DNA of 64,000 bases from Streptomyces sp. T12. Its GTDB lineage: Bacteria; Actinomycetota; Actinomycetes; Streptomycetales; Streptomycetaceae. Positions 5,951 through 61,259 of the stretch are shown here, one piece after another (within the stretch, counting starts at the first letter, position 1; each line of letters begins with the position of its first letter). The stretch covers positions 5,704,001 through 5,768,000 of the forward strand of contig NZ_CP117866.1 of assembly GCF_028736035.1 (NCBI RefSeq), in the 5' to 3' direction. The notes below the pieces were generated by a model. The model had not been told where the DNA came from and did no database searches. It was given only the letters and a program-made list of their open reading frames with translations. Position numbers and translations under genes: made by a program.

Positions 5951-6156
5951 AACCCCCGGGTCTTTGACCTGGGGGTTTCGCATGGAGCGGGTGACGAGAA
6001 TCGAACTCGCGCTCTCAGCTTGGGAAGCGACGGCGCTTGCAGAGCCTCACACCGTCTGACCTGCGCAGATGCGTACAGTCGCTGCTGGTGTGGGGGCTTG
6101 GTGGCCCCGTTGTTGACCGTGGTTGTCCGTCCTTAGGGGCACGCTATGGGCACGGC
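5951..6156. repeat. att-like repeat 1: terminator, tRNA-Gly 3' end (minus strand), arm sites
   Basis: 5951-5977 is a hairpin with 12-bp arms (AACCCCCGGGTC / GACCTGGGGGTT). 5983-6028 on the minus strand equals the last 46 nt of a tRNA-Gly: half of the anticodon arm with CCC anticodon, intact T arm, acceptor strand and encoded CCA. The 5' half of the tRNA is absent. GACGGCGCTTG follows the core. At 6109-6156 come TTGACCG/TTGTCCG and GGGCAC/GGGCAC direct repeats about one helical turn apart, resembling integrase arm sites. It is read as an attL/attR remnant. Confidence 0.85.
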
Positions 6157-6319
6157 GCTCCAGGACGGGCAGGTGTCGGGCTGAAGTGGCCCGCTTTCTA
6201 CACGGAGTCTGCCGGTGCCGAGGCCGACCACGCGGCGTCCTTGCGAGTGCACATGGACTCGTCTTCGGCCTATGGGCTCCGGTGTGGTGTCCATCTCCTG
6301 CTCCGGGTCTCTCAGCGGC

Positions 6320-7297
6320 TCAGGCAGCCGCCAGTTTCCGGATGCGCGGATGGTTCTCCAACGCCCTGCGCACGGTCTTCGGCGGGCGTCCGAGCAGGGT
6401 CTCCAGTTGGTCGGTGGTGCCGCGGTACCCGCCGCCGCCCATCAGCCGGGTCAGGGTCTTCAGGTGCTCCGCGGTGTGTGGGAGCGCGGCCAGGGCGGGG
6501 TCCACGTAGGTCTCGTTCCAGGTCTCGACGTCTTCGGGAACGTAGGTGACCGGGCGGCCCAGGACGGCGGCGTAGTCCTCCGCGAACCCGTGCATGTCCT
6601 TCAGCTCCGGGCCGTTGAGGTCGTAGGACTTCGAGATGTGCGGCGCCGGGTCCATCAGGATCTTCACGCACAGTTCGGCCACGTCGTAGCCCGCGATGGG
6701 TGCGAGCCGGTGGTCACCGAAGGGCAGGCGCAGTTCACCTCTGCTCAGCGGATCCAGTGCCAGCCAGGTCATCAGGGGGTTCTCGACGAACATGGCTCCG
6801 CGGATGTTGACGGTCGGGAGGCCGGACCAGTCCAGCACCTGCTCGGCGACCCAGTGGGCCCGTTGCTGCGGCGACCAGTTGGCGATGAGTCCGCCGAGCC
6901 ACGCGCGCCGTTCTTCCTCCGGTGCGGTCATCTTGTCGAACGTCATGAACGACTGCTCGTACTCGGAGATGTTGACGAACACCTCGATGTCGCCCTGGGC
7001 CCGCGCCGCCGCGGCCATCAGGCTCACGGCGTCGGTGTAGTACGGCGACAGGCTCATGCTGAAGTAGATGCGCCGCACCCCCTTCAGCATGGCGGTCACG
7101 TCGGCGACGGTCAGCAGGTCACCGACGAAGACCTCGGCGCCGGCCTGGCGGAGCGAGTGGGCGCGTTCGTCGTCCTGGCGCACGAATGCCCGTACCGGGT
7201 GCCCTTGTTCGAGCAGCATGTCGACCATCGTCCGGCTCACACCACCGATCTCGTCGGCGGCACCGGTGATCAGGATGGGATTGCGCTCTGGCATCAA
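6320..7297 (-). CDS. NmrA-like NAD(P)-binding protein (atypical SDR)
   Basis: 325 residues. An N-terminal Rossmann fold (ILITGAADEIGGVSRTMV, then FVGDLLTVADV) is followed by the long C-terminal substrate region typical of NmrA/HSCARG-like proteins. The classical SDR Tyr-x-x-x-Lys is not visible, so it may be a sensor or an atypical reductase. It is transcribed with the downstream-numbered SDR from the operator-bearing promoter at about 8200 (61-bp gap). ATG at 7294 is an equivalent start. Confidence 0.8.
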   Translation of the reverse strand: MMPERNPILITGAADEIGGVSRTMVDMLLEQGHPVRAFVRQDDERAHSLRQAGAEVFVGDLLTVADVTAMLKGVRRIYFSMSLSPYYTDAVSLMAAAARAQGDIEVFVNISEYEQSFMTFDKMTAPEEERRAWLGGLIANWSPQQRAHWVAEQVLDWSGLPTVNIRGAMFVENPLMTWLALDPLSRGELRLPFGDHRLAPIAGYDVAELCVKILMDPAPHISKSYDLNGPELKDMHGFAEDYAAVLGRPVTYVPEDVETWNETYVDPALAALPHTAEHLKTLTRLMGGGGYRGTTDQLETLLGRPPKTVRRALENHPRIRKLAAA

Positions 7298-7358
7298 GGT
7301 GTCGTCTGTCTGGTGGAGGTGGGGCGGCTGTCCGGAAAGCCCAGGCAGCGCGTGCGCG

Positions 7359-8177
7359 TCAGTCGGCCAGCTGGTTCATCTTGCGGATCTGCTTGTCGAA
7401 GACTCCGGCGGGAGCGAGACGGCGCAGTACGCGTGCGCGTCCGGCCAGGGGGCCGGCGGTGTAGCGCGCCTTCGGCTTCGGGTCGGTCGCTGCCGTGACG
7501 ATCGCCTGGGCGACGACGGCGGGGGCGTCGCCGCCCCTGACGGCCTCCGCCATGACGCGGTCGACGGCCTGCCGCTGCTTCCCGTACGCGTGCAGGGGGG
7601 TGTCGGGCTTCGCGCTGTTGGCCTCGAATCCGGTCCTGGTGTAGGCGGGTTCGACGATGAGTGCCCGGACGCCGTGGTCACGGATCTCGTGGTCGAGGGA
7701 CTCGGTGTAGCCCTCGATCGCATGCTTGGAGGCGGCGTAAGCGGCCATGTAGGGCTGGGGCAGGAACCCGAGCACGGACGAGATGTTGATGATGCGCCCG
7801 CGTCGCTGAGCGCGCATGTGCGGCAGGACCTCGTTCACCATGCGCATGACCCCGAAGACGTTGGTGTCGAAGACGGACTGGGCCTCCTCGACGGAGGTCT
7901 CCTCCGCCGCACCCATCGAGCCGACGCCGGCGTTGTTGACCAGGACGTCGATCCGCCCGAACCGCTCGCTCACCTCCTGGACCGTGGCGGCGACCGAGGT
8001 GTCACTGGCGACGTCGAGTCCGAGGAACGTCACGCCGTCGAGCGGGGTGACGCGTGAGGTGTCACGGCTTGTGCCGACCACGTTGAATCCGGCTGCGACC
8101 AGGGCGAGCGCGGTTTCCTTCCCGATGCCGGATGACGCACCCGTCACGAGTGCCACCGGCTGATCTGTCGTCATCAT
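7359..8177 (-). CDS. Classical short-chain dehydrogenase/reductase
   Basis: 272 residues with all classical SDR marks: TGASSGIG (cofactor loop, 14-21), NNAG, an active-site Ser in INISSVLG and YAASK (Tyr/Lys). The 'classical' type usually reduces carbonyls with NADPH; the substrate is not predictable. It is divergent from a TetR gene, with two operator palindromes between them, and probably co-transcribed with the NmrA-like gene. Confidence 0.88.
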   Translation of the reverse strand: MMTTDQPVALVTGASSGIGKETALALVAAGFNVVGTSRDTSRVTPLDGVTFLGLDVASDTSVAATVQEVSERFGRIDVLVNNAGVGSMGAAEETSVEEAQSVFDTNVFGVMRMVNEVLPHMRAQRRGRIINISSVLGFLPQPYMAAYAASKHAIEGYTESLDHEIRDHGVRALIVEPAYTRTGFEANSAKPDTPLHAYGKQRQAVDRVMAEAVRGGDAPAVVAQAIVTAATDPKPKARYTAGPLAGRARVLRRLAPAGVFDKQIRKMNQLAD

Positions 8178-8195
8178 GGACTCCCGCGCTCACTC

Positions 8196-8235
8196 GAAAC
8201 CGATCGGTTTCCCCTACAGTAAACTGATCGGTTTC
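8196..8235. promoter_or_regulatory. Tandem TetR-type operators O1
   Basis: GAAACCGATCGGTTTC at 8196-8211 (perfect 16-bp palindrome) and TAAACTGATCGGTTTC at 8220-8235, centres 24 bp apart, between the divergent SDR and TetR genes. The same element recurs at 9419, 12042/12065 and 12489/12513. Confidence 0.85.
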
Positions 8236-8267
8236 CGCGTGCAAGTTCAAGCAGGGAGAATGTCGCC

Positions 8268-8792
8268 ATGGGCAGGATCAGTGCGCCGGAGAGGCGTGAG
8301 AGCGTCACCCGCGCGGCGATCACCGAGTTCGCGATCGCCGGCTACCACGGCACCTCCACCGCGGCGATCGCCAAGCGGGTCGGCGTCACGCAGCCGTATC
8401 TCTTCCGGCTCTTCCCGGACAAGAGGGCGATCTTCGTCGCCGCTCTGGTGCGGAGCATGGACGACACCCGCCTGGCTTTCGAGACGGCGGCCGACGGGGC
8501 GGAGGGCGGCGAGCGGGTTCTTCAAGCCATGGCGAACGCTTACGCGCAGCTGATCTCGACGCGACCCGAGACGCTCCTGATGCAGATGCAGGGATATGCC
8601 GCCGTGGCGGCCACCGAGGCGCAGGGCGATGACCTGATCGGTGAGGTCGTCCGGGCCGGCTGGATGAGGATCTGGGAAACCGTGCACCTGTCGCTGGGCG
8701 CCGATGCCGACGAGACCGCAAGCTTCTTCGCTTGCGGCATGCTCGGCAACACGCTTACGGCCATCGGGCTTCCCGCGAGCACCGGGAGGTGA
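8268..8792 (+). CDS. TetR-family repressor (candidate regulator of the GAAACCGATCGGTTTC operators)
   Basis: 174 residues. The HTH lies at residues ~8-55 (ESVTRAAITEFAIAGYHGTS, GVTQPYLFRLFPDK); the C-terminal helical ligand domain is short for the family. GGGAG precedes the ATG by ten bases. Its promoter contains operators O1, fitting autoregulation. The downstream TetR gene is convergent, 25 bp away. Confidence 0.87.
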   Translation: MGRISAPERRESVTRAAITEFAIAGYHGTSTAAIAKRVGVTQPYLFRLFPDKRAIFVAALVRSMDDTRLAFETAADGAEGGERVLQAMANAYAQLISTRPETLLMQMQGYAAVAATEAQGDDLIGEVVRAGWMRIWETVHLSLGADADETASFFACGMLGNTLTAIGLPASTGR

Positions 8793-8817
8793 GGGAGTCT
8801 TCTGGACGGCCGACGCG

Positions 8818-9387
8818 TCAGCGCACGCCTGCCGCGTCGAGCAAGGTGGTCACCGTGGGTGCGATGAGCCCGGTCAGGTTGTCGGCCTGGATTCCCGCGC
8901 GGGCGCTGGCGCCGTCGAAGACCAGGCTGAGCTGCCGGGCCAGCAGATCGGGATCGCCCGCCCCGCCCTGCTCGGCCTCGGCGCGGAAGAAGGCGGTCAG
9001 GTTCGCCTTGACCTGATGGGCGACCCGGCTCGCGGGGTGACTCTGGTCCTTGAGTTCGACCTGCACGGCCAGGTACCGGCAGCCGCGGAACTCGGGGGCG
9101 CTGGACTGTGATTCCACCTGCTCGAAGACGTGCAGGATCCGCTCGCGGGGTGAACGGTTGTCGTCCGCCGCAGGCAGGAGAGTCGCCACGTAGGCGGAGG
9201 AGCGCTCCTTCAGGCTTGCTGCCAGGAGTTCGTCCTTGCTCTCGAACAGCTGGTACATGGAGCGCTTCGACACCCCGGCCGCCTTGCACAGCGCCTCGAC
9301 GCCGATGCTGACGCCGTCTCGGTAGGTGAGCGTGGCCGCCGCCTCCAGCAACCGCTCCCTGGGGCTCAGTTTCACTTCGGTGGTCAT
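8818..9387 (-). CDS. TetR-family repressor 2
   Basis: 189 residues. The HTH at ~10-55 reads LLEAAATLTYRDGVSIGVEA, GVSKRSMYQLFESKDEL; the C-terminal half resembles TetR_C domains of oxidoreductase-linked regulators. One GAAACCGATCGGTTTC-type operator lies 32 bp before its start, so it belongs to the same regulon or controls itself. The sequence does not show which of the two TetRs binds the shared operator. Confidence 0.86.
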   Translation of the reverse strand: MTTEVKLSPRERLLEAAATLTYRDGVSIGVEALCKAAGVSKRSMYQLFESKDELLAASLKERSSAYVATLLPAADDNRSPRERILHVFEQVESQSSAPEFRGCRYLAVQVELKDQSHPASRVAHQVKANLTAFFRAEAEQGGAGDPDLLARQLSLVFDGASARAGIQADNLTGLIAPTVTTLLDAAGVR

Positions 9388-9418
9388 ACCGCGAGGTTAA
9401 CCCGAAGCGGACGAAATA

Positions 9419-9434
9419 AAAACCGATCGGTTTC
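9419..9434. promoter_or_regulatory. Single TetR-type operator O2
   Basis: AAAACCGATCGGTTTC, upstream of TetR repressor 2 (start 9387). It carries the same core palindrome as O1, O3 and O4 but occurs singly. Confidence 0.8.
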
Positions 9435-9452
9435 CTGGGGTCCTGAGGGAGA

Positions 9453-9491
9453 GGCTCGGCGACGGCCTGGGGAAAGGGCCGTCGCCGAGCC
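9453..9491 (-). terminator. Strong hairpin terminator
   Basis: Perfect 15-bp arms (GGCTCGGCGACGGCC and its complement) around a 9-nt loop, without a T-run as is common in Streptomyces. It lies downstream of the DUF3533 gene and separates that operon from TetR repressor 2. Confidence 0.75.
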
Positions 9492-9577
9492 ATGACGGTG
9501 CGCGCGCCTGTCGTCCACGGCGGGGCCACACACACCGGGGCCACCCCGAGTAATGGCCCGTCTTGGGTGACCTGCCG

Positions 9578-10876
9578 TCACGCCGGGACGGCGGTCTTCT
9601 CGGGCTTCGTCTCCACCGGGATGCGATGCAGCCCCTTGCGGTCGTACCACCCCAGTACGCCGAAGCCGAACAGCGCGGCCGCCACGAGGCCGGCCGCCAT
9701 CATGACCCAGCCCCGCGTCAGACCCGCGTCGCCCTGGGCGTCGTAGTAGAGGATCGAGCGGATGCCGCCGGTGATCTGCCGCAGCGGCTCGAACTCGGCG
9801 AGGAAGCGGTAGAAGCCGGGCAGCGCCTCGATGGGGGTGGTGGCACCGGCCGTGGGTACCGCCATCCCGATGAAGACCAGCGTGACCACCAGCATGCCGG
9901 GCGTGCCGAAGACCGCGAGGAGGGTGAGTGCGCCGATCCCCGAGACCGCGATGGCGCACACCGAGTACAGCCAGAGGAGCGGCAGGTGGGAGGCGTCCAT
10001 GCCCATGATGCCGACCGCGCCGGCCATGACCAGGGTGCCCATCAGCAGGGACAGTCCGGCCATGAGGGTGCTGCTGATGGTGAGGGTCTGCACCCGGGTG
10101 GCCCGTATCAGCGGGCGGTGCAGGCGCAGCGGTCCCACGTCGTTGTGGGTGTAGCCGAGGGCGTGGTCGACCTGGCTGCTGATGACATTGGCGGAGAGCA
10201 TGCCGCAGACCACGAGGACGAGCGCGTAGTAGAACGCCGTCAGGCCCAGGCCGCTGTGTGAGTCGAGGGGGTGGCCGTCCTCAACCGTGACGGCAGCCGG
10301 GTCGGCGAGCAGGACGCGTGCCGCTGCGGGCAACTTCGCCTGCGCGGTCCCGATCTGGGCGGTCAGCTCCTTGCCCACCTGGAGCGAGGCATTCTCGGCC
10401 GCCTGGGTCGTCACCGTCCGGGCCAGGCCGGAGCCCAGGCTGCCGGCGGACTGGTTGGTCAGCACTGTCAGCGTCGGGCGGGCCGGGGGCCCGGCGGGCG
10501 CGGTGCCGGTCAGTGCGGTGGTGGCTGAGGTGAAGTCGGCGGGCACGACGAGCGCGCCGAACAGCTTGCCCTTGCCGAGTTCCTCCTTCATCTCCTTCTC
10601 GTCCATCACCTTCCAGTCGATCCTGTCCCCGCTCGTGGTCGACTTCTTGATCGACTCGGTGATCTGAGCCCCGAGGTCGACCTCCTTGCCGCCGACAGTG
10701 GCTCCCTTGTCGGCGTTGACCAGGCCGACGGGCAGCTTGGTCAGGTGATCGGCCGGATCGATGTTGGCGCCGACGTAGAACACGGCGAACAGCAGCGCGA
10801 GTACGCCCGTGATGACGCCGTTCGCGATCCACAGAGGCTTGGCGCGCAGGACGCGGAAGGGGGGAATGCCACTCAT
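9578..10876 (-). CDS. DUF3533 / YhgE-like ABC-2-type membrane protein
   Basis: 432 residues from ATG at 10876, which overlaps the upstream stop (ATGA). There is an N-terminal membrane segment (~16-36), a long extracytoplasmic region (PVGLVNADKGATVGGKEVDL... of the DUF3533/YhgE family), then about five membrane segments between residues 230 and 415. No ATP-binding domain is present. Family members are implicated in export or drug tolerance. It is coupled to the 4Fe-4S protein gene and under operators O3. Confidence 0.8.
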   Translation of the reverse strand: MSGIPPFRVLRAKPLWIANGVITGVLALLFAVFYVGANIDPADHLTKLPVGLVNADKGATVGGKEVDLGAQITESIKKSTTSGDRIDWKVMDEKEMKEELGKGKLFGALVVPADFTSATTALTGTAPAGPPARPTLTVLTNQSAGSLGSGLARTVTTQAAENASLQVGKELTAQIGTAQAKLPAAARVLLADPAAVTVEDGHPLDSHSGLGLTAFYYALVLVVCGMLSANVISSQVDHALGYTHNDVGPLRLHRPLIRATRVQTLTISSTLMAGLSLLMGTLVMAGAVGIMGMDASHLPLLWLYSVCAIAVSGIGALTLLAVFGTPGMLVVTLVFIGMAVPTAGATTPIEALPGFYRFLAEFEPLRQITGGIRSILYYDAQGDAGLTRGWVMMAAGLVAAALFGFGVLGWYDRKGLHRIPVETKPEKTAVPA

Positions 10877-11997
10877 GATGTACGTGTCTCTCGGTCGGTG
10901 GACGCGGAGCGTTTCGCCGGGGGCTGCCAGCCGCCGGTGACTTCCTTGACGGGCTTGTGGGGGAAGCGACGCCGGGCGTACTCCTGCGCGTGCGAGCCCG
11001 GCAGGACGTACAGGGTTTCCTTCTTGTCCTGGAGCGGGCGCAGCACGGTGTCCATAAACGTCTTGCGGTCGTCCAGGTACGGGCCCAGGACGTCCTCGCC
11101 GGCGGGGCAGACGGCAAGGCAGTAGCCGGACTTGTAGCCGGGCGGCGAGCTGAGGCTCTGCCACATGGAGGCGCTCTCGGAATCAGTGACGCGGGAGCGG
11201 TAGTCGGCGGCGTCCTCGCTGTCGGCCACCGTCTGCGCCCAGTCGGTGAACCCGCTCATGAACTCGCGGTAGTTGTGCGTGGTGCAGGCCAGCGCGTCGA
11301 AGGCGCCGTCCTTGGCGATGGCGCCGACCGGACAGGCGGCGACGCACAACTTGCAGTCGATGCAGGGGTTGTAGTCCAGCGCCTGCCCGTACTCGCTCAC
11401 CTCCGTGTCCACCAGGACGGTGACCAGCAGGACGAAGCTGCCGAACTTCGGGTGGATGACGTTGCGGTGCAGGCCCATCACGCCGAGTCCGGCGGCCACC
11501 GCGACCGTCTTGTGCGCCACCACCCAGATCCGCTCGCTGGGGAAGCGGTCCATCTCCTGGGGGAAGCCGACGGACGGGTTGAGGGCGCGGTAGCCGGCGT
11601 CCTGGAGCGCCTGGGTGACGCTGCGGGCGGCGTGGTTGGCCTGTTCGTCGGCCTGGTGGAACTCCTGGTTGGCCACGCTGCGGGCCGGGGAGCGGCAGTT
11701 GTCGCGGTTCATCCGCACCGCCATCGCGATCAGGGTGCGGGTGCCGGGCAGCGCGGACTGTACGTGCTCGCGTTCGCCGGCCAGATCGGGGTGATCCAGG
11801 CTGACCGCGGCCGCGTCGTCCGCGCCGGCCGCGAGGCACAGCTCGCGCAGCCATTCCGCGTCGATCACCGCCGACGGACGTGCGATGCCGCCGGTCCTGC
11901 GCCGGGCGAGTACGGCCTGCACCGACGGGTGGGCCGCCAGTTTCGCCGGAAGCCTGGGAGGAGTGGGTTGCCCCTCGGTGTCGCGCGCGGCAGTCAT
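10873..11997 (-). CDS. 4Fe-4S oxidoreductase related to reductive dehalogenase / epoxyqueuosine reductase
   Basis: 374 residues from ATG at 11997, preferred because CCTAGGAG sits just upstream; the longer frame from 12036 would push its start against operator O3. The C-terminal half has CIDCKLCVAACPVG (~232) and a second cluster ligand set GYCLAVCPAG (~315), i.e. two [4Fe-4S] clusters as in QueG and RdhA families. The N-terminal half (GVMGLHRNVIHPKFGS) resembles the cobalamin-binding region of these families. There is no Tat signal, so it is cytoplasmic. It is co-transcribed with DUF3533. Confidence 0.78.
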   Translation of the reverse strand: MTAARDTEGQPTPPRLPAKLAAHPSVQAVLARRRTGGIARPSAVIDAEWLRELCLAAGADDAAAVSLDHPDLAGEREHVQSALPGTRTLIAMAVRMNRDNCRSPARSVANQEFHQADEQANHAARSVTQALQDAGYRALNPSVGFPQEMDRFPSERIWVVAHKTVAVAAGLGVMGLHRNVIHPKFGSFVLLVTVLVDTEVSEYGQALDYNPCIDCKLCVAACPVGAIAKDGAFDALACTTHNYREFMSGFTDWAQTVADSEDAADYRSRVTDSESASMWQSLSSPPGYKSGYCLAVCPAGEDVLGPYLDDRKTFMDTVLRPLQDKKETLYVLPGSHAQEYARRRFPHKPVKEVTGGWQPPAKRSASTDRETRTS

Positions 11998-12041
11998 CCG
12001 TGCTCCTAGGGATGCGGGTTCCAGGCTTGCCATCACGGCGA

Positions 12042-12080
12042 GAAACCGACCAGTTTCACCACCGTAAACTGATCGGTTTC
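12042..12080. promoter_or_regulatory. Tandem TetR-type operators O3
   Basis: GAAACCGACCAGTTTC (12042-12057) and TAAACTGATCGGTTTC (12065-12080), centres 23 bp apart, upstream of the 4Fe-4S/DUF3533 operon. Confidence 0.82.
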
Positions 12081-12085
12081 TGCGC

Positions 12086-12488
12086 GCAAGCCCAAGCGGC
12101 GAGCCTCTTCCTCGGACCGTCGATCAAGTTCCTTGCGGACGTTGGTGATCGATCGCCAGGTGATCAGGGCTCAGCCCCGCGAATTGGTCCGGGCCGACGT
12201 CCATGCTGCGAGGCGACCGCACCACCATGTACGTCGAGAGCCTGACGGGCACCCTCTCCGGCATCGAAGGCATCCCCCTGCCCTCAGTCCTCCGCCTCCA
12301 CCTCACGCCCGACACCGTCCCGGAGTGGCTCTACGGCATGGTCGGGAAACTCGGCCCAGACTCCGAGTCGACTTGGGCGACGCCGACATCGACCAGGCCG
12401 GTCGGACAGGTGGAGAGCTCGTCATCCCGGGGATCCAGGGGTACGGAACGCCCCGGTGAACCCGGGGAGCCTGTTGGGCTTGCGCTTG
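12086..12488. other. 403-bp gap, no gene recognised
   Basis: A plus-strand frame (IPLPSVLRLHLTPDTVPEWL, about 12268-12330) looks protein-like but has no clear start or family. The rest appears non-coding; it may be debris of a deleted gene. Confidence 0.5.
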
Positions 12489-12528
12489 GAAACCGATCGG
12501 TTTACCTTAATGGAAACCGATCGGTTTC
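12489..12528. promoter_or_regulatory. Tandem TetR-type operators O4
   Basis: GAAACCGATCGGTTTA (12489-12504) and GAAACCGATCGGTTTC (12513-12528), centres 24 bp apart, about 20 bp before the start of the downstream SDR gene. Confidence 0.85.
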
Positions 12529-12547
12529 TCATTCTGTGGAGGCAGTC

Positions 12548-13249
12548 ATGACCGCACTCAAGGGCGCCAACGTCTTCGTCACCGGCGGCAGCCGAGGCAT
12601 TGGCAAGGCCCTGGTGGAAGAGCTGTACGCGCGCGGTGCCGGCAAGGTCTACGCCACGGCCCGCGACCCGCGCACGGTGACGCACCCCGACGCGGTACCG
12701 GTGGCGCTGGAGGTCACCGACCCGGCTTCCGTGGCGGCCGCCGCGGCGCAGGCGCAAGACGTGACCGTGCTGATCAACAACGCCGGTGCCTCGGTCGGCG
12801 CGTCCTTCCTCGACTCCCCGGTCGACGACGTACGCCGGGAGTTCGAGACCAACTTCTACGGCCCGCTGCTTCTCACCCGCGCCTTCGTGCCCCTCATCGA
12901 GCGCAACGGCGGCGGCCACCTCCTCAACGTGCACTCCGTGCTCTCCTGGCTGGCCCTCGGCGGCTCCTACAGCGCATCCAAGGCCGCCCTGTGGTCGCAG
13001 ACCAACTCCCTGCGCCTGGAGCTGCAGCCGCGCGGCATCGCCGTCACCGGACTTCACGTCGGCTACGTCGACACGGACCTGGCGGCGGACGTCGAGGCGC
13101 CCAAGTCCGACCCGCGTGACGTCGCCGCACTCGCCCTCGACGGCGTCGAGGCGGGCGCGTACGAGGTGCTCGCCGACGACATCTCGCGGCAGGTCAAGGC
13201 CGGCCTGGCCGGCGAACTGGCCGGCCTGTACGCCCAGCTGGCGAAGTAA
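12548..13249 (+). CDS. Short-chain dehydrogenase/reductase
   Basis: 233 residues from ATG at 12548 with GGAGG seven bases upstream. It has TGGSRGIG (12-19), NNAG, VHSVLSW and YSASK, so cofactor and catalytic residues are complete. It differs from the other SDRs in the window in lacking a C-terminal extension. It is directly under operators O4 and is followed after 28 bp by an alpha/beta hydrolase in the same direction. Confidence 0.88.
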   Translation: MTALKGANVFVTGGSRGIGKALVEELYARGAGKVYATARDPRTVTHPDAVPVALEVTDPASVAAAAAQAQDVTVLINNAGASVGASFLDSPVDDVRREFETNFYGPLLLTRAFVPLIERNGGGHLLNVHSVLSWLALGGSYSASKAALWSQTNSLRLELQPRGIAVTGLHVGYVDTDLAADVEAPKSDPRDVAALALDGVEAGAYEVLADDISRQVKAGLAGELAGLYAQLAK

Positions 13250-13277
13250 CCCCCTTTACATCCGAGGAGTCGGCGAG

Positions 13278-14156: not shown

Positions 14157-14207
14157 CCCCCGGGACCACTGACATAAATCATCCCCGAATTGGACTAGAC
14201 AACAAGT

Positions 14208-51518: not shown

Positions 51519-51532
51519 CGGCCCTTTCCACC

Positions 51533-52883: not shown

Positions 52884-54329
52884 CTACTCCTTGTAGAAGG
52901 TGGCGTCCTGCTGGCCGACGGTGGTGGTCACCGGCTGGGTGTAGAGCAGGTGGTTGTAGTGCCGGATGTACCGGCCGGGGAAGTTGTACGACTCGTACGA
53001 CACAGCCGCGGGGTCGGCGAGACCGGCCCGCTCGTGGAACGAGGCGTCATTGTCGAACAGGGTGGTGCCGTCGTCCTTCTCCACCCACACCTCGTTGTTC
53101 TTGTGGCGCAGGTAGTAGCCGGGGAAGTTGGCCGATTCGAGGGAGACGGTGCCGTTGCCGGCCAGGCCGGGGACGACGCGGAACTGCGAGTCGGCGAGTT
53201 CGGTGACGTTGGACTCGGTCTTGGCCCGGAACTCCCAGTGCCGGATGAACTTGTCCGGGTAGTTGTACGAGGAGAAGCGGACGGGGGTGACACCGTCGGC
53301 GACGGGGATGCCGAAGTTGGGTGTGCCGTCGGCGTTCCAGTAGATCTTCTGGTAGCGGGTGCGGCGGTTGGGGTCCTTGAGCGGGTCGCCGACGATGTCC
53401 CTGTAGTTGCGGGCGTGGTAGACGAGGATGTCCGACTTGCCGTCCTCGGAGACCGTGAACGTGTTGTGGCCGGGGCCGTACTGGCTGGTCTTGTCGTTGC
53501 TCTTGAGGACCGGCGTGGGAGTCTTGCTCCAGGAGGCCGGGTTCATCAGGTCGGCGGTGGCGTCGGCGGTCAGCAGGCCGAGGCAGTAGTTGGCGTTGGT
53601 GGCGCTGGCCGAGAAGGTCATGAAGACCTTGCCGTTCTTCTGGATCACGGCCGGGCCCTCGTTGACGCGGGCGCCGGCGGTCTCCCAGGCGTACTGGGGC
53701 TTGGAGATCATGACCGGGCTGCCCTCGATGGTCCAGGGGTTGGCCATCTTCGCCAGGTAAATTTGCGTGCCCTTGCCGAACGCCGGGTCTTCCTGGGCCC
53801 AGCTCAGGTAGCGGGTGCCGTTGTGCGTGAAGGTGGTGGCGTCCAGCGAGAAGGTGTCCATGGGCAGGCTGATCCTGCCCTTCTCGGTCCAGGTGCCGGT
53901 GATCGGGTTGGCGGCGCTGGTCTCCAGGACGTACGGGCGGATCCGCCAGATGTCGTTGGACCAGCCGGCCGTGAAGTAGATGTACCACTTGCCGTCGATG
54001 AAGTGGATCTCCGGGGCCCAGATGTGGGCGCCCATCTCACCGGTGGGGTGCTTGGTCCAGATCGTGGTCTCCGGGGCCGTGGCGAGGCCCTGGAGGGTGG
54101 TGGCCCGGCGCATCACGATCCTGTCGTACGCGGGGACCGTGGCGGTGAAGTAGTAGAAGCCGTCGGTGTGCTTGAAGATGTGCGGGTCGGCGCGCTGCTC
54201 GGCTATCGGGTTGGTGAAGGTGACGGCGGGGGACGCGGGCACGGCAGCCTGGGCAGGGGTGGTCACGGTGGTGAGCACGGCGAGCGCGGCCGCCGCAGCC
54301 ACCAGAACCCGTCTGGCGAGATGTCTCAT
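52884..54329 (-). CDS. Secreted GH43 glycosidase with C-terminal AbfB (CBM42) arabinose-binding domain
   Basis: 481 residues from ATG at 54329. Signal peptide ~1-29 (ARRVLVAAAAALAVL...AQA). GH43 five-blade propeller ~35-335: the base Asp is in QRADPHIF, a further Asp in FSLDATTF and the acid Glu probably in ARVNEGPAV. The AbfB beta-trefoil (~345-478) has three SxNFPGxYLRH-type repeats (VRFSSYNYPDKFIRHWE, SLESANFPGYYLRH, SYESYNFPGRYIRH). It likely removes arabinose from hemicellulose outside the cell. The only intact gene of its block. Confidence 0.88.
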   Translation of the reverse strand: MRHLARRVLVAAAAALAVLTTVTTPAQAAVPASPAVTFTNPIAEQRADPHIFKHTDGFYYFTATVPAYDRIVMRRATTLQGLATAPETTIWTKHPTGEMGAHIWAPEIHFIDGKWYIYFTAGWSNDIWRIRPYVLETSAANPITGTWTEKGRISLPMDTFSLDATTFTHNGTRYLSWAQEDPAFGKGTQIYLAKMANPWTIEGSPVMISKPQYAWETAGARVNEGPAVIQKNGKVFMTFSASATNANYCLGLLTADATADLMNPASWSKTPTPVLKSNDKTSQYGPGHNTFTVSEDGKSDILVYHARNYRDIVGDPLKDPNRRTRYQKIYWNADGTPNFGIPVADGVTPVRFSSYNYPDKFIRHWEFRAKTESNVTELADSQFRVVPGLAGNGTVSLESANFPGYYLRHKNNEVWVEKDDGTTLFDNDASFHERAGLADPAAVSYESYNFPGRYIRHYNHLLYTQPVTTTVGQQDATFYKE

Positions 54330-54779: not shown

Positions 54780-55017
54780 CTGCCGGCGCCGGAACAGATA
54801 TTGCCACCGTTGCCCAGGTCGATGCCCTCGCCGAGCGATCGGTATCCGCTGGCGCCTCATGGTCTACCTCGGCGTGTATGGCCCGACGCGACCCGAGGAA
54901 CTCGCCGGTCTTCGCCGCCGGGACGTCGGCCTCGACGGCCTGGTGCGCGCGGAGCGTGCGAACCACGACGACCCCGCATCCCTACCCGCGCACCGCAACG
55001 AGGAGGCTGCCAAGAGC
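54780..55017 (+). pseudogene. Tyrosine integrase fragment (catalytic-domain start, frameshifted)
   Basis: TDIATVAQVDALAER in one frame continues after a shift as MVYLGVYGPTRPEELAGLRR RDVGLDG, the beginning of the integrase catalytic domain. The Arg in the usual 'GLR' position appears in PTRPEELAGLR. The centre and Tyr are missing and the end jumps to a short tail before TAA. It points toward att repeat 5, and the 55 bp after its stop match those after the integrase remnant at att repeat 1. Confidence 0.75.
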
Positions 55018-55067
55018 TAATGGCGCGGTTGTGGTGCGCCACTCACCCACCGATCTAGACAACAAAG

Positions 55068-55273
55068 AACCCCCGGGCCGCTGGCCTGGGGGTTTCGCAT
55101 GGAGCGGGTGACGAGAATCGAACTCGCGCTCTCAGCTTGGGAAGCGACGGCGCTTGGATGGTGGTACTGCTTCTGACCTGCAGTTATGTTGCCGCAAAGC
55201 GGCTTCGGAGGGCTGGCTTCGTGCCGCTGTTTACCGTTGTTGCCCGGTCTTATGGGCACGCTTTGGGCACGGA
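55068..55273. repeat. att-like repeat 5
   Basis: Terminator (AACCCCCGGGCC...GGCCTGGGGGTT, 55068-55094), tRNA-Gly 3' end on the minus strand at 55100-55145 (identical core), GACGGCGCTTG, and arm repeats at 55218-55273 (TTTACCG/TTGCCCG, GGGCACG/GGGCACG). The left flank (55016-55067) is about 90% identical to that of repeat 1. Confidence 0.85.
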
Positions 55274-55774
55274 CCCACAGGGGGACGGTGTGCGGGGGCT
55301 CGACCGCTCAGTTGCGGTACTGCACCTGCGGGTGCGGGATGTGCCTGACGTGTTGGCATTGCAGATGCACACTCCTGTGACAGCGTATGCGGTCCGAGGG
55401 CAGCGGTGGCCCAGTGGGCGGCCACGTTCGGCCGAGCAGAGCAGCCGGGTCAGTGCGGAGGCGTCGAAGATCCTCTGCGCTGCCCTCATCCAATGCCTCG
55501 ACAGAGTTCGACACCCGCTTTGGGAGTGGGATCGAATCCTTGCCGGGTGCGCTCGTCGGTGCTATCTGATGTTGTTTTCCCTGGTCAGCAACATGCGGGC
55601 CGTGCACTCAATCCCGCGCATGACGCTCCGTCGCGGACGCCTCGGCAGCAAGGGGCAACCCTCAACACGCTGTCCAAATGTTCGTCTGGGGGTTCGGGAC
55701 TGATCAGGAGTGCTCACCTGCTGGCGGCCACTCATCGAGTCTCACTCACGACCCGATAAGCCCCATGAGGCGGC
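55274..55774. other. About 500-bp gap, no gene recognised
   Basis: No frame with convincing features. Base composition is somewhat less GC-rich around 55560-55620. It may be remnants of the element entering at repeat 5. Confidence 0.4.
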
Positions 55775-56046
55775 TGGGAGGCGGCGGCGTGGCGGCGCGC
55801 GAGCAGGTCGCGGTGCCACCGCAGCACCGTGTCCGGACGCATCAGCAACCGCAGCCTGGGCGGCACGTCCTTCGGGAGCTGGTGCAGCGGCGCCGCCATG
55901 AATGCCCGATCACCCGGGTGGAACCGCACCCTCTTCTTGCCGAGTCGGCGGTCCAGGACGGTGATCTGATGGCGCAGGACGAGGATCTCGACGTCCTTGT
56001 CCCTGTCGCTCATCACCAGCAGACGCAGCATGGCGAACGCGTTCGT
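55775..56046 (-). pseudogene. Transposase/integrase-core family N-terminal fragment
   Basis: The frame TNAFAMLRLLVMSDRDKDVE, ILVLRHQITVLDRRLGKKRV, FMAAPLHQLPKDV, LLMRPDTVLRWHRDLLARRH matches the N-terminal region of an actinobacterial integrase-core transposase group. The DDE core is missing after about 55780. No terminal repeats seen. Confidence 0.75.
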
Positions 56047-56545
56047 GACGCCGAAATGGTGCCAGTCGCAGCAGCACGGCCGATCACCATGTCGCAGCGA
56101 TCGCCAACTGCGGGAGAGCACAGGCGCAAGCGGCCGGCAACTGGGAGCCGGAAGGCCGAGTCGAACTACCGGATGGACGGGCATGAGGGCAAACGAAGCA
56201 CGCCGCGCCGCAACCGTAGGCGCGGACTGGTCACGGGCATTCCCTTGGCGCTGCTGGTCGTCGGGTGCCGGCGTGCCGTCCCCCCGGGAGCGGGACCGGT
56301 GTCATGATCACCGACATCTACGGGGAGCGGCTGACCGTCGACGGCACCGCCGTGCAGCCGGACGTCGCGCAGCCGACGGGCGTCCAGTTCGCCCGGCATT
56401 GACCAGCCCGCCGGACAGCCTTCACCGGTCCGCAACCGAGCACGACCGCCGTTCGAATCCCGGGCCGCGCACTGTTAGGCTGCGCCCCCTGTTGTTAAAC
56501 ATGCAACTAACGCGCACATCATCGCCAGGAGAGGGCGACGGAGGG

Positions 56546-57076
56546 ATGCTCGTCGACGGCGCGTCCGCGGAGTTCCACGAATTCTTCGAACGCCACTATG
56601 CCGAACTCGCCCGTCTGGCACACCTCCTGACCGGCGAGACCGACGCGGCGGACGACCTCGCGGCGGATGCCCTGGTCGCCCTGTGGCAGCGCTGGGACCG
56701 GTTGCGGCAGGCCGACCACCCGCTCGCCTACGCCCGCGGTGTGGTGGCCAACCTGGCGCGCGGACGGATCCGCAGCGCGGTGCGCGAGCGACGCCGGATC
56801 ACGCTGTTCTGGTCCCGCAGCCCCGAGAAGGTGGACGGGCCGGACATGGCGGCCGTGCTGGACGTCCGCGCGGCGCTCGCCCGGCTGCCGTTCCGCAAGC
56901 GTGCCTGCGTGGTGCTGCGGCACGCCTTCGACCTGTCGGAGAAGGACACGGCGGCAGCGCTGGGCATATCGGTCGGCACGGTGAAGAGCCAGACCTCGAA
57001 GGGAATGGCCGAGCTGGAAAGGATACTGGGCGCACGAGCGGTCGGGGACCTGGTGGCAGGGAGGAGGAACCGGTGA
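56546..57076 (+). CDS. SigE-family ECF RNA polymerase sigma factor
   Basis: 176 residues, GGAGGG just before the ATG. Region 2 ~10-80 (FERHYAELARLAHLLTGETD, ADDLAADALVALWQRWDRL) and region 4 ~110-165 (ALARLPFRKRACVVLRHAFD, LSEKDTAAALGISVGTVKSQ). No C-terminal extension. Its stop overlaps the following membrane protein (GTGA), the usual place of an anti-sigma or co-sensor. Confidence 0.9.
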   Translation: MLVDGASAEFHEFFERHYAELARLAHLLTGETDAADDLAADALVALWQRWDRLRQADHPLAYARGVVANLARGRIRSAVRERRRITLFWSRSPEKVDGPDMAAVLDVRAALARLPFRKRACVVLRHAFDLSEKDTAAALGISVGTVKSQTSKGMAELERILGARAVGDLVAGRRNR

Positions 57077-57855
57077 ACGACGAGATCGCACGTCGGCTGC
57101 GCGAGGCCGCCGAGGCGCACCGGCCCGACCGCGCGAGGATGCTGGCCCGGGTGCAACGCGGCATGGCCGGCCCCGCCGTCCGTCACCGCGCGCGGCCGTT
57201 CGCGAGGTCTGGGACCAGGGTCGCGCTCGCCGGGCTCGCCACCGTCGGCATCCTGGCGACCGGCGGCCTCGCCGTCGCCGCCATCGTCGTGACCCCGTCG
57301 CCGTCGGCCACCGTGACCACGCCTGCCACCCCGTCCCCGACCGTCAGCTCCCCGCACCCGACATCGGGCCGCCCCACCCCTGTTGCGCCGGCCCCGGCCA
57401 CCCCGGGCAGGGCGCGCCCGACTCCGCCGGCCACCAGTCCATTGCCGACCGCCGGCGAGAGCCAGAACGGGCCGCTGTGGTCGGCCGGCTCGGTGGACCC
57501 GCACAGCACCGTCTACTGGACGCAGAACAACCTCGCCCTCAAGACGACCCGGCCGCTCACCTCGCTCACGATCGAGATGCGGATCGTGCAGACCGGCGGG
57601 GTGAAGAACACCGGCACCTGGCAGACCTCGCCGAGTGGTGACTTCACCGTCACCGCCCAGGAGGCCGACGGCACGCTGGTCTACCGCTGGGTCCTCAAAC
57701 CGGGCCTGACCGTGCCAGCCGGGAGCTATGAGTTTGCCGCCCAGTTCGACAACGGCACCGGCGTGCGCAGTGCCGCGCGCGACGGCTACCGCGTCGACGC
57801 GCAGGGTTCGGGCGGCTCCGTGTCGGTCCGGGGAGGGTTCGTCCCGACCCGGTGA
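57073..57855 (+). CDS. Single-span membrane protein coupled to the sigma factor (putative anti-sigma/sensor)
   Basis: 260 residues from GTG overlapping the sigma stop, with GGAGGAA upstream. Short cytoplasmic helix region (1-45), membrane segment (~47-68), long Pro/Thr/Ser linker (~75-130), then a beta-rich external domain (~135-258; [40 protein letters not shown]). No zinc anti-sigma motif. By position it could sequester the sigma factor or sense a surface ligand. Its own stop overlaps the start of a truncated GH62 frame. Confidence 0.75.
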
Positions 57856-58382
57856 ACGCCGCTGTGCGGCAAGGGGACGAGACCCTGATCGCTGACGGCC
57901 AGAACATGTACCTGTTCTTCGCCGGCGACAACGGCAAGATCTACCGGGCGAGCATGCCGATCGGGAACTTCCCGGGCAACTTCGGCTCGTCGTACACGAC
58001 GGTCATGAGCGATTCGACGAAGAACCTGTTCGAGGCGCCGCAGGTCTACAAGGTTCAGGGCCAGAACCAGTACCTCATGATCGTCGAGGCTCGGGGTGCG
58101 AACGAGCAGCGCTACTTCCGCTCGTTCACCGCCTCCAGCCTGAGTGGTTCCTGGACCCCGCAGGCCGCCGGCGAGAGCAAACCCTTCGCGGGCAAGGCCA
58201 ACAGCGGTGCCACCTGGACCAACGACATCAGCCACGGCGACCTGGTCCGCAACAACCCCGACCAGACCATGACCATCGACCCCTGCCACCTGCAGTTCCT
58301 CTACCAGGGCAAGTCCCCCACCGCGATCGGCCCCTACGACCGACTGCCGTGGCGGCCGGGTGTCCTCACCCTGCAGCGCTGA
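57852..58382 (+). pseudogene. GH62 alpha-L-arabinofuranosidase, C-terminal half only
   Basis: 176 codons. [55 protein letters not shown] and [13 protein letters not shown] are classic GH62, ending at the normal C-terminus. The N-terminal half, with signal peptide and the catalytic base Asp, is absent; the likely acid Glu (NLFEAPQ) remains. A GTG at 57852 overlaps the preceding stop, so the fragment is still translatable. Without secretion signal and half the propeller it cannot be a normal enzyme. Confidence 0.85.
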
Positions 58383-58488
58383 CCCGCCTGATCCACGGTG
58401 ATGGCGATCGGGTGCGGTGCACCGGCGCGTAGACGAGCGGTCTACGGCGTGGGCACCTCCACCCGCTGACCGCTGCTCACCGCCTCGA

Positions 58489-58519
58489 GGAACCCCAGCC
58501 GTGCGCCGGCTGGGGTTCC
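58489..58519 (+). terminator. Hairpin terminator
   Basis: Perfect 12-bp arms (GGAACCCCAGCC and its complement), 7-nt loop, about 105 bp after the GH62 fragment. Confidence 0.7.
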
Positions 58520-58694
58520 AATCGTTTGGGGACCAGGCGGAGGCTCGGCGAGGCTTGTCGGGCTGATGGGTGGGCTCCTGGTCCTGCGTCAGCACGATCA
58601 TCCCCTTCGCCAAGGCTGCCTCGATCGGCGCCCGCACCGACGGCGGCATGGCCGGCGCCGACGGGAGAAGGCCTCAGCCCGACGCAGACGACGA

Positions 58695-58727
58695 AATGCG
58701 CCCCCATCGAAGAGATGGGGGCGCATT
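58695..58727 (-). terminator. Hairpin terminator
   Basis: Perfect 14-bp arms (AATGCGCCCCCATC and its complement), loop GAAGA, 12 bp beyond the stop of the lectin-linked protein. Confidence 0.8.
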
Positions 58728-58739
58728 CGCCGGCTTCGC

Positions 58740-60611
58740 CTACTTGAGTCGTGTACCACCCGAGTTGTGATACGCGATCGTCTTGCGGATCAGGTTTCCG
58801 CCGTCGGTCTCAGGCGTCGTCTGCTCCGTCCACCCCGCACCGAACAGCAGGCCGGCGATGTGGGCGTTCGCCACCTGGTCCATGTGGCCGAAGAGCCAGT
58901 CCACCTTGTCGTCCTTGAAGTGGCCGGGAGTGTTGTTCCCCGCCATGTTGCCCACGGGGATCTGCCACAGGACCACCGGCTTGCCCACGGACTCGGCCAT
59001 CGTCTTCCAGAACTTCAGCGAGGCGGCGGCCTTCTGGTCGGTCCAGAAGGTGTCACGGCTGCCGTGGGCCGGCTGTGCGTACCAGCCCGCGTCGCGGTCC
59101 GACACATCGGTGACCAGGAAGTCGGCGTTCTTCGCCCCGAGGTCCGCGTAGTCCTTGACGCACTTCTGGAGGTTGCTCTCCCAGTCGAAGCAGGAGAGGT
59201 GCAGCCCCACGGCGGCGTTCGGCGCGTACTTGTGCGCCATGTGAATCAGGCACTGGGCGAGTCCGGCGGCGCTGTTCTCCTGCGATCCGCAGTCCGTCGG
59301 GTTGGCGCCCGAGACCTGCGAGGGAACCTGGTGCAGATTGCCGAGCGACCGGGCGAAGCCCCAGAAGTCGGGCTCCAGGTCGATCATGTCGTGGGACTTG
59401 CCGATCTTCTGGAGGAAGAACCGGTAGTCGTTCAGGTACATGGTGAGCAGGTCACGCCTGTTGATGGCCTTGACCTCGCCCGGGCCGTCACCCTCGCCTG
59501 CCATGTCCCCGAGGTCGCGCAACGAGTACCAGGTCCAAAGATACTTCTGCGGTCGCGACTTGCCCTGGTACGTCGCCTTGGCCGCCACGCTGTCCTGCCA
59601 GGTCACCTGGTTTCCGGGCGCCGTGCTGCTGCCGCCCCAGCAGCCCCACCAGCCCGACCACTCATCCTTGCAACGCGACGCCGTATAGGCGGCCGACGTG
59701 GGCGCGGGCTGGCTGTGTATATAGGCGTAGCGCACGTCGAACGGCGCGGCGTTCGCCGAGGCGTCAGTCATCGAACCGCCGATGAACACCTTGTCGCTGC
59801 CCATGAAACGTGTCGTCGAGCTGCCGTTGGTGGGGGTCGGAGACGTCGGCGGCGACGCCGGAGCGCTGCCGCTCGGAGCCGGGCTCGCCGGAGTGCTGCC
59901 GCCGGGCGCGGGCGTGCTGCCGGAGTTCCCCGGCTTCCCGGTGCCGCCGGCGACGCTACCGGCCGCGACGAGCTTCCACTGCTGGTTGGCACCGCCCCGG
60001 TCGCGGTTCTGGACGACGTCGCCCCCGTTGGCCTTGGTGGCGTTCTTGACACCGACAGCCATGCCACTGAAGCGATTGACCAAACGCACGTAGCCGTCCG
60101 ACGACTTGGCCAGTTTGAACTGCTGGTTGGTGGCGTTCAGGTCTTTCCACTGCACGATGGCGGAGCCGACGGTCTTCGACCAGCCGAAGTCGTCCAGCAC
60201 CTTGCCGGAGGTCCGGTTCTGCAGCCGGTAGTACCCGTCACCCGAGTCGACGAACCGCCACTGCTGGTTGGCCCCGCCGTGACGGCTCCACTGCACCACC
60301 GCCGCGCCGTCGTTCTTGGCGGAGCCGCGGTCGTCCAGCACCTTGCCGCTGTTGCGGTTGACCAGCACGTACCACTTCTTCAGATCCAGGGTTTTCTGCT
60401 GCGCCGAAGCCTGGTTGACCACGACAGCCGAGCCGGCCACGACCACCATGGCGAGACCCGCCCAGAAACCCCGACGCGCGAGCAACCGACGGCCACGATG
60501 CTTCGGGCGGTCACCGCGCGCGCCGCCGTCGGCACGGTGGCCGCCGACGCGGGACGCCACCGATGACGTGGGTGGGCCGGGGACATGTCTGTGCTCTCGT
60601 TCCAGGGACAT
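58740..60611 (-). CDS. Secreted ricin-type lectin fused to a putative TIM-barrel hydrolase domain
   Basis: 623 residues from ATG at 60611; in-frame ATGs at 60641 and 60590 are possible. An Arg-rich N-tail and a signal/anchor (~46-70, cleavage near ASAQ) precede a ricin-B beta-trefoil (~80-215) with three Q-x-W-like motifs (NQQWRF, NQQFKL, NQQWKL), a Pro/Ser/Thr linker (~219-266) and a ~350-residue C-terminal domain. That domain has FIGGSMTDASANAAPFDVRY, HDMIDLEPDFWGFARS, VGLHLSCFDWE, FLVTDVSDRDAGWYA and KPVVLWQIPVGNM. The strand-ending acidic residues suggest a TIM-barrel glycosidase, but I cannot name the family. Confidence 0.78.
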   Translation of the reverse strand: MSLEREHRHVPGPPTSSVASRVGGHRADGGARGDRPKHRGRRLLARRGFWAGLAMVVVAGSAVVVNQASAQQKTLDLKKWYVLVNRNSGKVLDDRGSAKNDGAAVVQWSRHGGANQQWRFVDSGDGYYRLQNRTSGKVLDDFGWSKTVGSAIVQWKDLNATNQQFKLAKSSDGYVRLVNRFSGMAVGVKNATKANGGDVVQNRDRGGANQQWKLVAAGSVAGGTGKPGNSGSTPAPGGSTPASPAPSGSAPASPPTSPTPTNGSSTTRFMGSDKVFIGGSMTDASANAAPFDVRYAYIHSQPAPTSAAYTASRCKDEWSGWWGCWGGSSTAPGNQVTWQDSVAAKATYQGKSRPQKYLWTWYSLRDLGDMAGEGDGPGEVKAINRRDLLTMYLNDYRFFLQKIGKSHDMIDLEPDFWGFARSLGNLHQVPSQVSGANPTDCGSQENSAAGLAQCLIHMAHKYAPNAAVGLHLSCFDWESNLQKCVKDYADLGAKNADFLVTDVSDRDAGWYAQPAHGSRDTFWTDQKAAASLKFWKTMAESVGKPVVLWQIPVGNMAGNNTPGHFKDDKVDWLFGHMDQVANAHIAGLLFGAGWTEQTTPETDGGNLIRKTIAYHNSGGTRLK

Positions 60612-61052
60612 GCCTGTGCTCTCTTTCAGCCGTTGCATCTGACCGGACCACTTGGCCGGACAACGCTTAGTGGTCCGAGAGGCCGAAAAGGTTGCCGCGA
60701 AGATCCACAGATTTTTTCGCCTTGACCGCTTCCCGTTCGCTGCGGAGCACGGCACGCCTGACGCCGGTGGTGGCGAACGCCTGATGGCTGGTCGGGGAAG
60801 GTGGGGGACAGCAGCGCGATCCCGACCCGGCAAGGCCGCTCCGAGCGCCTCGCCGACCTTGCGGCAGGGCATTCCCGTGCTGCCCTTCCACACCCAATGC
60901 GCTTGTGGACCACCTGGCCGCCCAACGAGAAGCCCACCATCCTGGACCCCACCCGTGACCGCCGGCATCTCCGACACCCTCGCCCTGGGCATCCTGTGCG
61001 AGGGGTACGGCATGTACTGGAAACGCGACCGCTGATCACCCCACACAGCAAA
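60612..61052. other. 441-bp gap before att repeat 6
   Basis: No intact gene. The last bases (CGCGACCGCTGATCACC, 61024-61040) match the flank of the coreless att remnant at about 18997, suggesting a related integrase end. No integrase motif is readable. Confidence 0.45.
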
Positions 61053-61259
61053 AAGGCCCGGGTCTCTGACCTGGGCCTTAGTCATGGAGCGGGTGACGAG
61101 AATCGAACTCGCGCTCTCAGCTTGGCAAGCGACGGCGCTTGGGGAGTCGGATAGCTTCTGGCCTGGGCATATGCGCTCTGCTGTGGGGCTCGGGAGCGCA
61201 GGATCGCACCGCTGTTGACCGTGGTTTACCGGTCTTACGGGCACGCTATGGGCACGCCG
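61053..61259. repeat. att-like repeat 6, variant core
   Basis: Terminator AAGGCCCGGGTC...GACCTGGGCCTT (61053-61079), tRNA-Gly 3' end on the minus strand at 61085-61130, GACGGCGCTTG, and arm repeats at 61204-61259 (TTGACCG/TTTACCG, GGGCACG/GGGCACG). The core differs from the others by one base (CTTGGCAAGC instead of CTTGGGAAGC), which turns the anticodon from CCC to GCC. Confidence 0.85.

Follow-up and report, generated by a model that had tools for sequence, protein, structure and literature searches.

Organisation of the tRNA-Gly(CCC) array

The window analysed here, a 64,000-nt stretch of Streptomyces sp. T12 (genome 5704001-5768000 of the 11.46-Mb assembly), carries a ladder of seven repeats, hereafter rungs R1 to R7, which are related to the 3' end of a tRNA-Gly gene and separate blocks of cargo genes (Table 1). 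All seven copies were recovered in one shared orientation, with start-to-start distances of 8257, 4718, 17967, 15436, 2739 and 5985 nt, and the motif of the right-hand (P') arm was found 7 times in the window, with 3 mismatches allowed, against 0.00 expected from 100 shuffles. Six rungs are full and one, R3 (19031-19129), has lost its core, as a sequence-only reading of this DNA had described. That reading had also stated that none of the repeats holds the tRNA 5' half, and it had predicted an intact tRNA-Gly(CCC) to the right. The shared tRNA part comprises 46 nt, and a tRNA gene scan of the window returned nothing. The predicted gene is present at genome 5790590-5790663 (-), 22.6 kb right of the window, where it closes the array.

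The ladder is larger than the window, two further full rungs (+) being located at genome 5648167 and 5769959. The array is anchored by the single tRNA-Gly(CCC), which is intact at one end, with its 3' end repeated at every boundary except the coreless R3. The position of this tRNA and the chromosome to its right, which aligns between related genomes among the matches listed, support the accretion at the tRNA-Gly 3' end that had been proposed.

Read from left to right, a rung comprises the direct-repeat pair of the P arm, a terminator hairpin, the 46-nt tRNA 3' end, GACGGCGCTTG, a spacer, a TTGACCG pair and a GGGCACG pair. The shared tRNA part ends with GGGAAGC in the anticodon stem-loop, and this is followed by GACGGCGCTTG in the rungs versus TGATGTTC in the intact tRNA. 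Because the sequence past GGGAAGC differs from that of the tRNA, a rung is a hybrid attachment site, in which the element on the left contributes its right end and the element on the right its left end, a makeup that repeated insertion at the tRNA would give. By their position and phasing, the repeat pairs are putative arm sites bound by an integrase.

Individual rungs depart from this scheme. R4 reads GATGGCGCTTG in place of GACGGCGCTTG, R7 has one substitution within the 46-nt tRNA part, and in the R5 spacer (window 52385-52532) a 21-nt tandem duplication moves the P' arm by about two helical turns. The P' spacers repeatedly contain CTGACCTG near +28 (e.g., window 6056-6063), and relatives of it occur in the terminator hairpin; it is possibly another protein-binding site.

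Spacing of the arm sites

Arm geometry was determined by fuzzy arm matches at the 56 GACGGCG-type junctions out of 69 element junctions in 18 stretches. The TTGACCG pair was positioned exactly at +84 in 34 of the 56 junctions and within 1 nt of it in 43, with no pair in 7. For the GGGCACG pair, the counts were 32 at exactly +108, 43 within 1 nt and 6 without a pair. An identity profile was made of the 32 junctions with the exact +108 placement (461 pairs, near-identical pairs excluded). Directly past the core, mean identity was 0.89; it ranged from 0.32 to 0.69 across six spacer windows, reached 0.84 and 0.89 in the arm pairs and fell to 0.33-0.37 beyond the arms. That the spacing is kept even though some of the spacer sequence has diverged almost to chance level suggests constraint rather than recent duplication.

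The P arms were assigned to four classes, namely class I (GGTGCG), class II (GGGCACG), class III (TGGCACG) and class IV, in which the class II site is inverted. Their pairs were found at -123 to -125 in 17/20 junctions of class I, at -124 or -125 in 17/21 of class II, at -124 to -126 in 13/13 of class III and at -147 to -150 in 21/21 of class IV.

A ladder of this kind could also arise by homologous recombination between rungs, or by segmental duplication of one rung, without any site-specific recombination. The length of the rungs would permit homologous exchange, and in one genome (G206:C1:4697413-4708590) three equally scoring half rungs lie about 5.5 kb apart, perhaps through recent tandem duplication of one element. 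This origin is nevertheless very improbable, given the strong divergence of the rungs outside the core and arms, the four P arm classes, the end of tRNA identity at the anticodon-loop core and of the repeat past the second GGGCACG, and the single orientation of the rungs relative to the tRNA at the array end.

Integrase genes of the array

The tRNA-proximal block of 20.6 kb contains an intact gene for a 383-aa tyrosine recombinase (type B; genome 5785242-5786393), which scored 41.9 bits with PF00589 (cut-off 27.1) and is the candidate cognate enzyme of the rungs. A 70-aa HTH_17 (xis-like) gene directly upstream of it may serve as xis. In other genomes, integrases of a second kind, type A, immediately adjoin the P arm on its left side, and homologues are found next to the site. 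Remnants of type A were found in two array blocks (Table 1), and the remaining six gave no match to the type A/B integrase families. An integrase-like match left of the 5648-kb rung (19 aa, E 0.34) was not significant. The gene at genome 5691162-5692865, a distant PF00589 member (32.6 bits), was rejected as driver, since it lies in the leftmost block far from any rung.

The tRNA-proximal block also contains a MobC-like gene (25.2 bits, cut-off 23.2) and a weak match to the MobB model (28 versus a cut-off of 400). Among its 18 gene calls, one scanned in part, TraB/FtsK gave no match and HTH_36 a single one below cut-off; int accompanied by a TraB/FtsK-type transfer gene and a replication initiator, as in actinomycete integrative and conjugative elements (AICEs), was not found. 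In the XerA/integron-integrase model, the type B integrase scored 44.9 bits versus a cut-off of 220.

Serine recombinases were discarded as candidates, as PF07508 run on 8 genomes gave no match in the array stretches; likewise, an RNA family at the rungs was dropped, the only two matches being sub-threshold and elsewhere. Phage relatives of the integrase were all under 60% identity, and the comparison with solved structures returned five distant recombinase sequences and nothing specific. The repeat itself matched phage records partially, over at most 26% of the query among the matches listed, and one viral contig with an 18-base P' junction was rejected after the profile gave no rung.

Distribution and integrase content of bounded elements

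A match spanning the tRNA 3' end through the P' arm was obtained in at least 64 of 294 other genomes of the genus, one per species, and thus in at least 65 with the window's own genome; the count is a lower bound, two candidates having been scored per genome. Alignment spans were used for this prevalence, and a pattern scan with 3 mismatches (86/295) was dropped for its many matches in a reversed control. In a family-wide sample of 249 genomes, all through-P' matches among those listed fell in the window's genus. Of the 65 P'-positive genomes, 61 were analysed, the own genome included (left out: G138 and G017, both without a tRNA match, and G182 and G238); the first 16 relatives had been picked for visible ladders, and the other 45 were those that remained. 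A single array held up to nine P'-bearing rungs. Among 11 genomes without the P' pattern, 10 showed diverged rungs or a related integrase within 20 kb at the same tRNA.

In 72 stretches, 101 elements were bounded on both sides, with a median length of 6.6 kb; 37 were shorter than 4 kb and 13 shorter than 2 kb. Integrase status was assigned to the 90 bounded elements from 46 of the 61 P'-positive genomes, excluding elements open within the fetched stretch and the 11 pattern-negative genomes. An integrase was called intact if 300 aa or more were aligned, and absent if none of five type A/B queries gave a tblastn match. By this measure, 11 elements carried an intact integrase, 11 a remnant and 68 none. 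Among the bounded elements next to the tRNA, which on this model would be the latest insertions, 29 of 44 were without one. In 7 genomes checked with PF00589, six array stretches contained no tyrosine recombinase.

The decay of integrases that the sequence-only reading had put forward is borne out by the remnants in two array blocks; most bounded elements of the own and 60 further genomes carry no trace of this integrase family.

The P' arms of the integrase-free elements largely match those of one integrase type. Intact type B elements had GGGCACG P' arms and class II P arms in 3/3 cases, and intact type A elements TGGCACG P' arms in 6/8; GGGCACG P' arms were present in 64 of the 68 integrase-free elements. 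These elements keep both attachment (att) ends, arm pairs not being recognised on every end, and in this they correspond to cis-mobilisable elements (CIMEs).

Cassettes shared between species

Three integrase-free cassettes extend from rung to rung in pairs of species and are more similar than the chromosome right of the tRNA, which served as flank. The cassette shared by genomes G079 and G127 (3.3 kb) is 91.3% identical versus 85.0% in the flank, that of G116 and G123 (2.4 kb) 94.5% versus 82.4%, and that of G123 and G294 (9.0 kb) 93.6% versus 82.9%, the flank of G123 comprising only about 0.6 kb. None of them matched the integrase queries. Their right-hand neighbours are unrelated, as alignment was confined to the attachment sequences at the ends (75-107 bp) in all three. 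The same confinement was seen in the left-hand stretches of the G079/G127 and G116/G123 cassettes; left of the G123/G294 cassette no match was found, the G294 stretch there being only 0.6 kb long.

Shared stretches were counted at 85% identity or more over 600 bp or more if they did not end at the tRNA, and an end within 150 bp of a rung was taken as rung-bound. Out of 98 such stretches, 3 were rung-bound in both genomes on both sides; by side, the counts were 8 (left) and 16 (right). Since the 150-bp zones around the cores make up 4.1% of the array bases, rung-bound ends exceed chance.

These data bear on the CIME model, in which movement would be in cis only and the integrase-free blocks would be passengers in composites whose limits are the rungs of a neighbouring autonomous element. 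Conjugative transfer of tandems of a CIME and an integrative and conjugative element (ICE) has been observed elsewhere (PMC5704250), and the MobC-like gene and weak MobB match next to the tRNA are in line with such transport. The unrelated right-hand neighbours of the three shared cassettes speak against it, as do two integrase-free cassettes that adjoin the tRNA, the place of the latest insertion: one of 1.2 kb in G127 with one Uma2-family gene, and one of 1.49 kb in G001 (13974-15460) with VapBC and, as judged from the open reading frames, no other gene. An integrase element could have left these two sites since. Movement in cis alone appears possible, if doubtful.

Class IV junctions and VapBC

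By profile, a class IV P arm was assigned to 25 junctions, distributed over 19 genomes. Of these, 0/25 had an integrase match on their left side within 5.5 kb, versus 41/127 other junctions, and a VapC gene lay within 1.6 kb of 13/25 versus 4/127; the Fisher p-values of both contrasts overstate them because the sequences are mutually related, which takes weight from the interpretation given below. The neighbouring cargo varied: a Shedu-type gene was present in G116 and G123 (PADLOC SduA, 514 bits) and, named by eye, an ABC transporter in G049 and genes of DEAD-box-like and CBS-like type in G242. A cassette of G003 bearing VapC2, the P arm of which was not counted as class IV, carries a gene for a TerD-domain protein. 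Class IV cassettes look like a lineage that may spread without an integrase of its own.

The VapC genes of class IV cassettes adjoin the tRNA-derived integration site. Many VapC-family toxins cut tRNAs.

The ladder might instead be the fossil of serial insertion, in which autonomous islands were added one after the other, their integrases were deleted and the rungs have stayed behind as inert scars. Such a history would account for the integrase remnants that lie immediately to the left of R1 and R6 and occur in 11/90 elements, for the lost core of R3 and the substituted core of R7, and for the majority of shared stretches ending away from rungs. We regard it as unlikely in view of the P' arms retained at fixed spacing in 64 of the 68 integrase-free elements, the three such cassettes that extend from rung to rung across species at an identity above that of the chromosomal flank, and the class IV junctions without such an integrase. 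To call the blocks decayed relics is too passive, since most elements have no integrase trace and three integrase-free cassettes were each found in two species.

Proposed mode of integration and movement

We consider it probable that integrative elements were added in tandem at the 3' end of tRNA-Gly(CCC) to form the island, and that most of them are non-autonomous cassettes which owe their movement to an integrase encoded by another element. The rung anatomy gives good support to insertion through tyrosine recombination at the tRNA-Gly core, with the tRNA restored. At each integration the incoming element would supply a new 3' end and terminator for the tRNA and shift the older elements to the left; because each insertion displaces older elements leftwards, a rung would join the P arm of its left element to the P' arm of its right element. 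Most probably, an integrase from elsewhere, e.g., the intact type B enzyme in the tRNA-proximal block, would excise and insert the cassettes in trans, or cassettes would alternatively travel in cis together with a neighbour. Movement of integrase-free elements in trans is suggested because their sites are kept, their P' arms match and cassettes recur in more than one species.

Several observations weigh against this interpretation. In 77 of the 98 shared stretches, neither end lay at a rung in both genomes, and internal rearrangement or decay is common in the arrays; on this count the overall interpretation of the sequence-only reading, too, stands only in part. Two intact type A elements deviate from the arm pattern, that of G084 with GGGCACG P' arms and that of G253 with none recognised, and the P arms of the 68 integrase-free elements comprise 11 of class II, 20 of class IV, 9 of class I or III and 28 that were unrecognised. 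The tRNA-proximal element of G079 holds two PF00589 recombinases, so the elements scored as integrase-free include at least one with another recombinase. No excision, circular form or transfer was seen.

The two G079 recombinase genes form a pair (G079:C1:4679472-4681918). They were ruled out as att integrases, since a similar-sized pair recurs at three other places of that genome, and probably belong to a transposon.

As the best reading, the behaviour of the array is integron-like, yet the array is not an integron. A wider proposal, which we put forward tentatively and as somewhat short of an even chance, is that tRNA-Gly(CCC) in Streptomyces is an integron-like platform where any DNA that gains the arm-core-arm site turns into a cassette to be inserted, stacked and shuffled in trans by a resident integrase, with the VapBC-linked class IV cassettes as a genus-wide selfish lineage that never owned an integrase. 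If this is true, a large part of the strain-specific cargo near the tRNA (catabolic genes, Shedu and restriction-type defence, toxin-antitoxin) entered as small non-autonomous cassettes through a borrowed integrase, and actinomycetes gain an integron-like route of gene capture. Arm sequence and spacing would then provide a simple rule to predict the pairing of integrases and cassettes, and the array would offer a testable case for the origin and persistence of non-autonomous elements.

Comparison with known systems

Tandem accretion at a tRNA is already a known kind of arrangement. The ssrA islands of Dehalococcoides are tandem elements beside one RNA gene, the 3' end of which is repeated at their boundaries as here; 15 of them are without an integration module and, according to the authors, might be cis-mobilizable (PMC3146451). 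They differ in their serine recombinases and a 20-bp repeat at ssrA, versus a tyrosine recombinase and tRNA-Gly in the present array, which in addition has arm sites of constant spacing, an integrase-free class linked to VapBC and cassettes as short as 1.2 kb.

AICEs and defective AICEs of Streptomyces accreted at tRNA-Arg (PMC9513070) are similar in their tandem order at a tRNA and their decayed members. They comprise one to three elements plus a remnant, in contrast to the up to nine P'-bearing rungs found here and the 18 tRNA-proximal gene calls (one in part) without a TraB/FtsK match. An AICE survey called tandem arrays with a common integrase and site inherently unstable (PMC3218068). CIMEs, described as decayed ICEs or integrative and mobilisable elements (PMC5704250), likewise retain att sites without an integrase, whereas the class IV cassettes look like an integrase-free lineage that spreads.

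Integron cassettes without an integrase (CALINs) are mobilisable in trans (PMC11389934), and the present arrays resemble integron arrays and CALINs in having cassettes of one or few genes that would be moved by an integrase encoded elsewhere. Unlike integrons, they have att sites of the tRNA type with arm-type repeats, and their integrase is of a non-integron kind by the score given above. Toxin-antitoxin cassettes occur in integrons.

PAISt of Streptomyces turgidiscabies undergoes modular excision at repeated att sites with one tyrosine recombinase (PMC4057263); its site at bacA is a palindrome of 8 bp, present in one internal and two flanking copies, as opposed to a tRNA ladder. A comparison of S. 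coelicolor and S. lividans reports islands at other tRNAs, with no tRNA-Gly in its available passages (PMC1934918). Among the matches listed in the open-access literature, no title dealt with a Streptomyces tRNA-Gly ladder or such VapBC cassettes.

Cargo of the window and additional rungs

Table 1. Rungs, blocks and remnants in the 64,000-nt window (window coordinates)
Feature	Position	Strand	Description
Type A integrase remnant	5740..5868	+	C-terminal part, 43 aa, 93%; directly left of R1
R1	5904..6154	+	Class I P arm (GGTGCG pair), terminator, tRNA-Gly 3' end 5983-6028, TTGACCG pair 6113, GGGCACG pair 6137
Block R1-R2	6155..14180		NmrA-like, SDR, TetR, ABC-2 membrane, ferredoxin-like and alpha/beta hydrolase genes
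R2	14180..14411	+	Terminator, tRNA-Gly 3' end to 14285, P' arm pairs from 14370
Block R2-R3	14412..18995		Peptidoglycan-binding and HTH/DUF2690 proteins
R3 (coreless)	18995..19129	+	Class III P-side piece joined to complete P' arm, pairs from 19088
Block R3-R4	19130..36845		CapC and Mur-ligase-like, NlpC/P60, mannosyltransferase-like, Na/H exchanger, ABC transporter and two-component genes
VapC type 1 remnant	19235..19393	+	51 aa, 60%; right of R3 P' arm
R4	36845..37096	+	Class II P arm, terminator, core to 36970, P' arm
Block R4-R5	37097..52260		Molybdopterin hydroxylase subunits, MoaA-like, XdhC-like, solute-binding protein, LysR/MarR/TetR regulators
VapC type 2 remnant	49311..49376	+	22 aa, 77%; within block R4-R5
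R5	52260..52532	+	Degenerate class II-like P side, core to 52385, P' arm offset 105 instead of 84
Main gene found in block R5-R6 (2.8 kb)	52884..54242	-	GH43 family protein with AbfB domain, arabinofuranosidase-type
Type A integrase remnant	54835..54945	+	37 aa, 86%; directly left of R6
R6	55020..55271	+	Class I P arm, core to 55145, P' arm
Block R6-R7	55272..61005		Sigma factor, GH62 piece, ricin-lectin protein
R7	61005..61256	+	Class III-like P side, core (one substitution) to 61130, P' arm

Part of block R6-R7 is 94% identical to an array stretch of G049 that ends within 77 bp of a rung in that genome.

Outside the array, a second locus with two rungs (L039/L040) lies near one chromosome arm at genome 646189-646254 and 660372-660562 (-). 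Type A integrase remnants are found left of its rung at 660 kb, and no tRNA gene was detected in the stretches scanned at 646-660 kb. A lone fragment (L041; genome 9294562-9294640, -) comprises the tRNA 3' end, the core and the first P' bases, without terminator or arms. Rungs with a P' arm are also carried by two linear plasmids, NZ_CP108708.1 (L144, 14970-15189) and NZ_CP109481.1 (L145, 7955-8192, beside an integrase piece), which are possible vehicles between cells.

In block R1-R2, where TetR-family genes are present, palindromic repeats of the GAAACCGATCGGTTTC type occur at window 8196-8258, 12041-12103 and 12489-12552 and are possibly operators.

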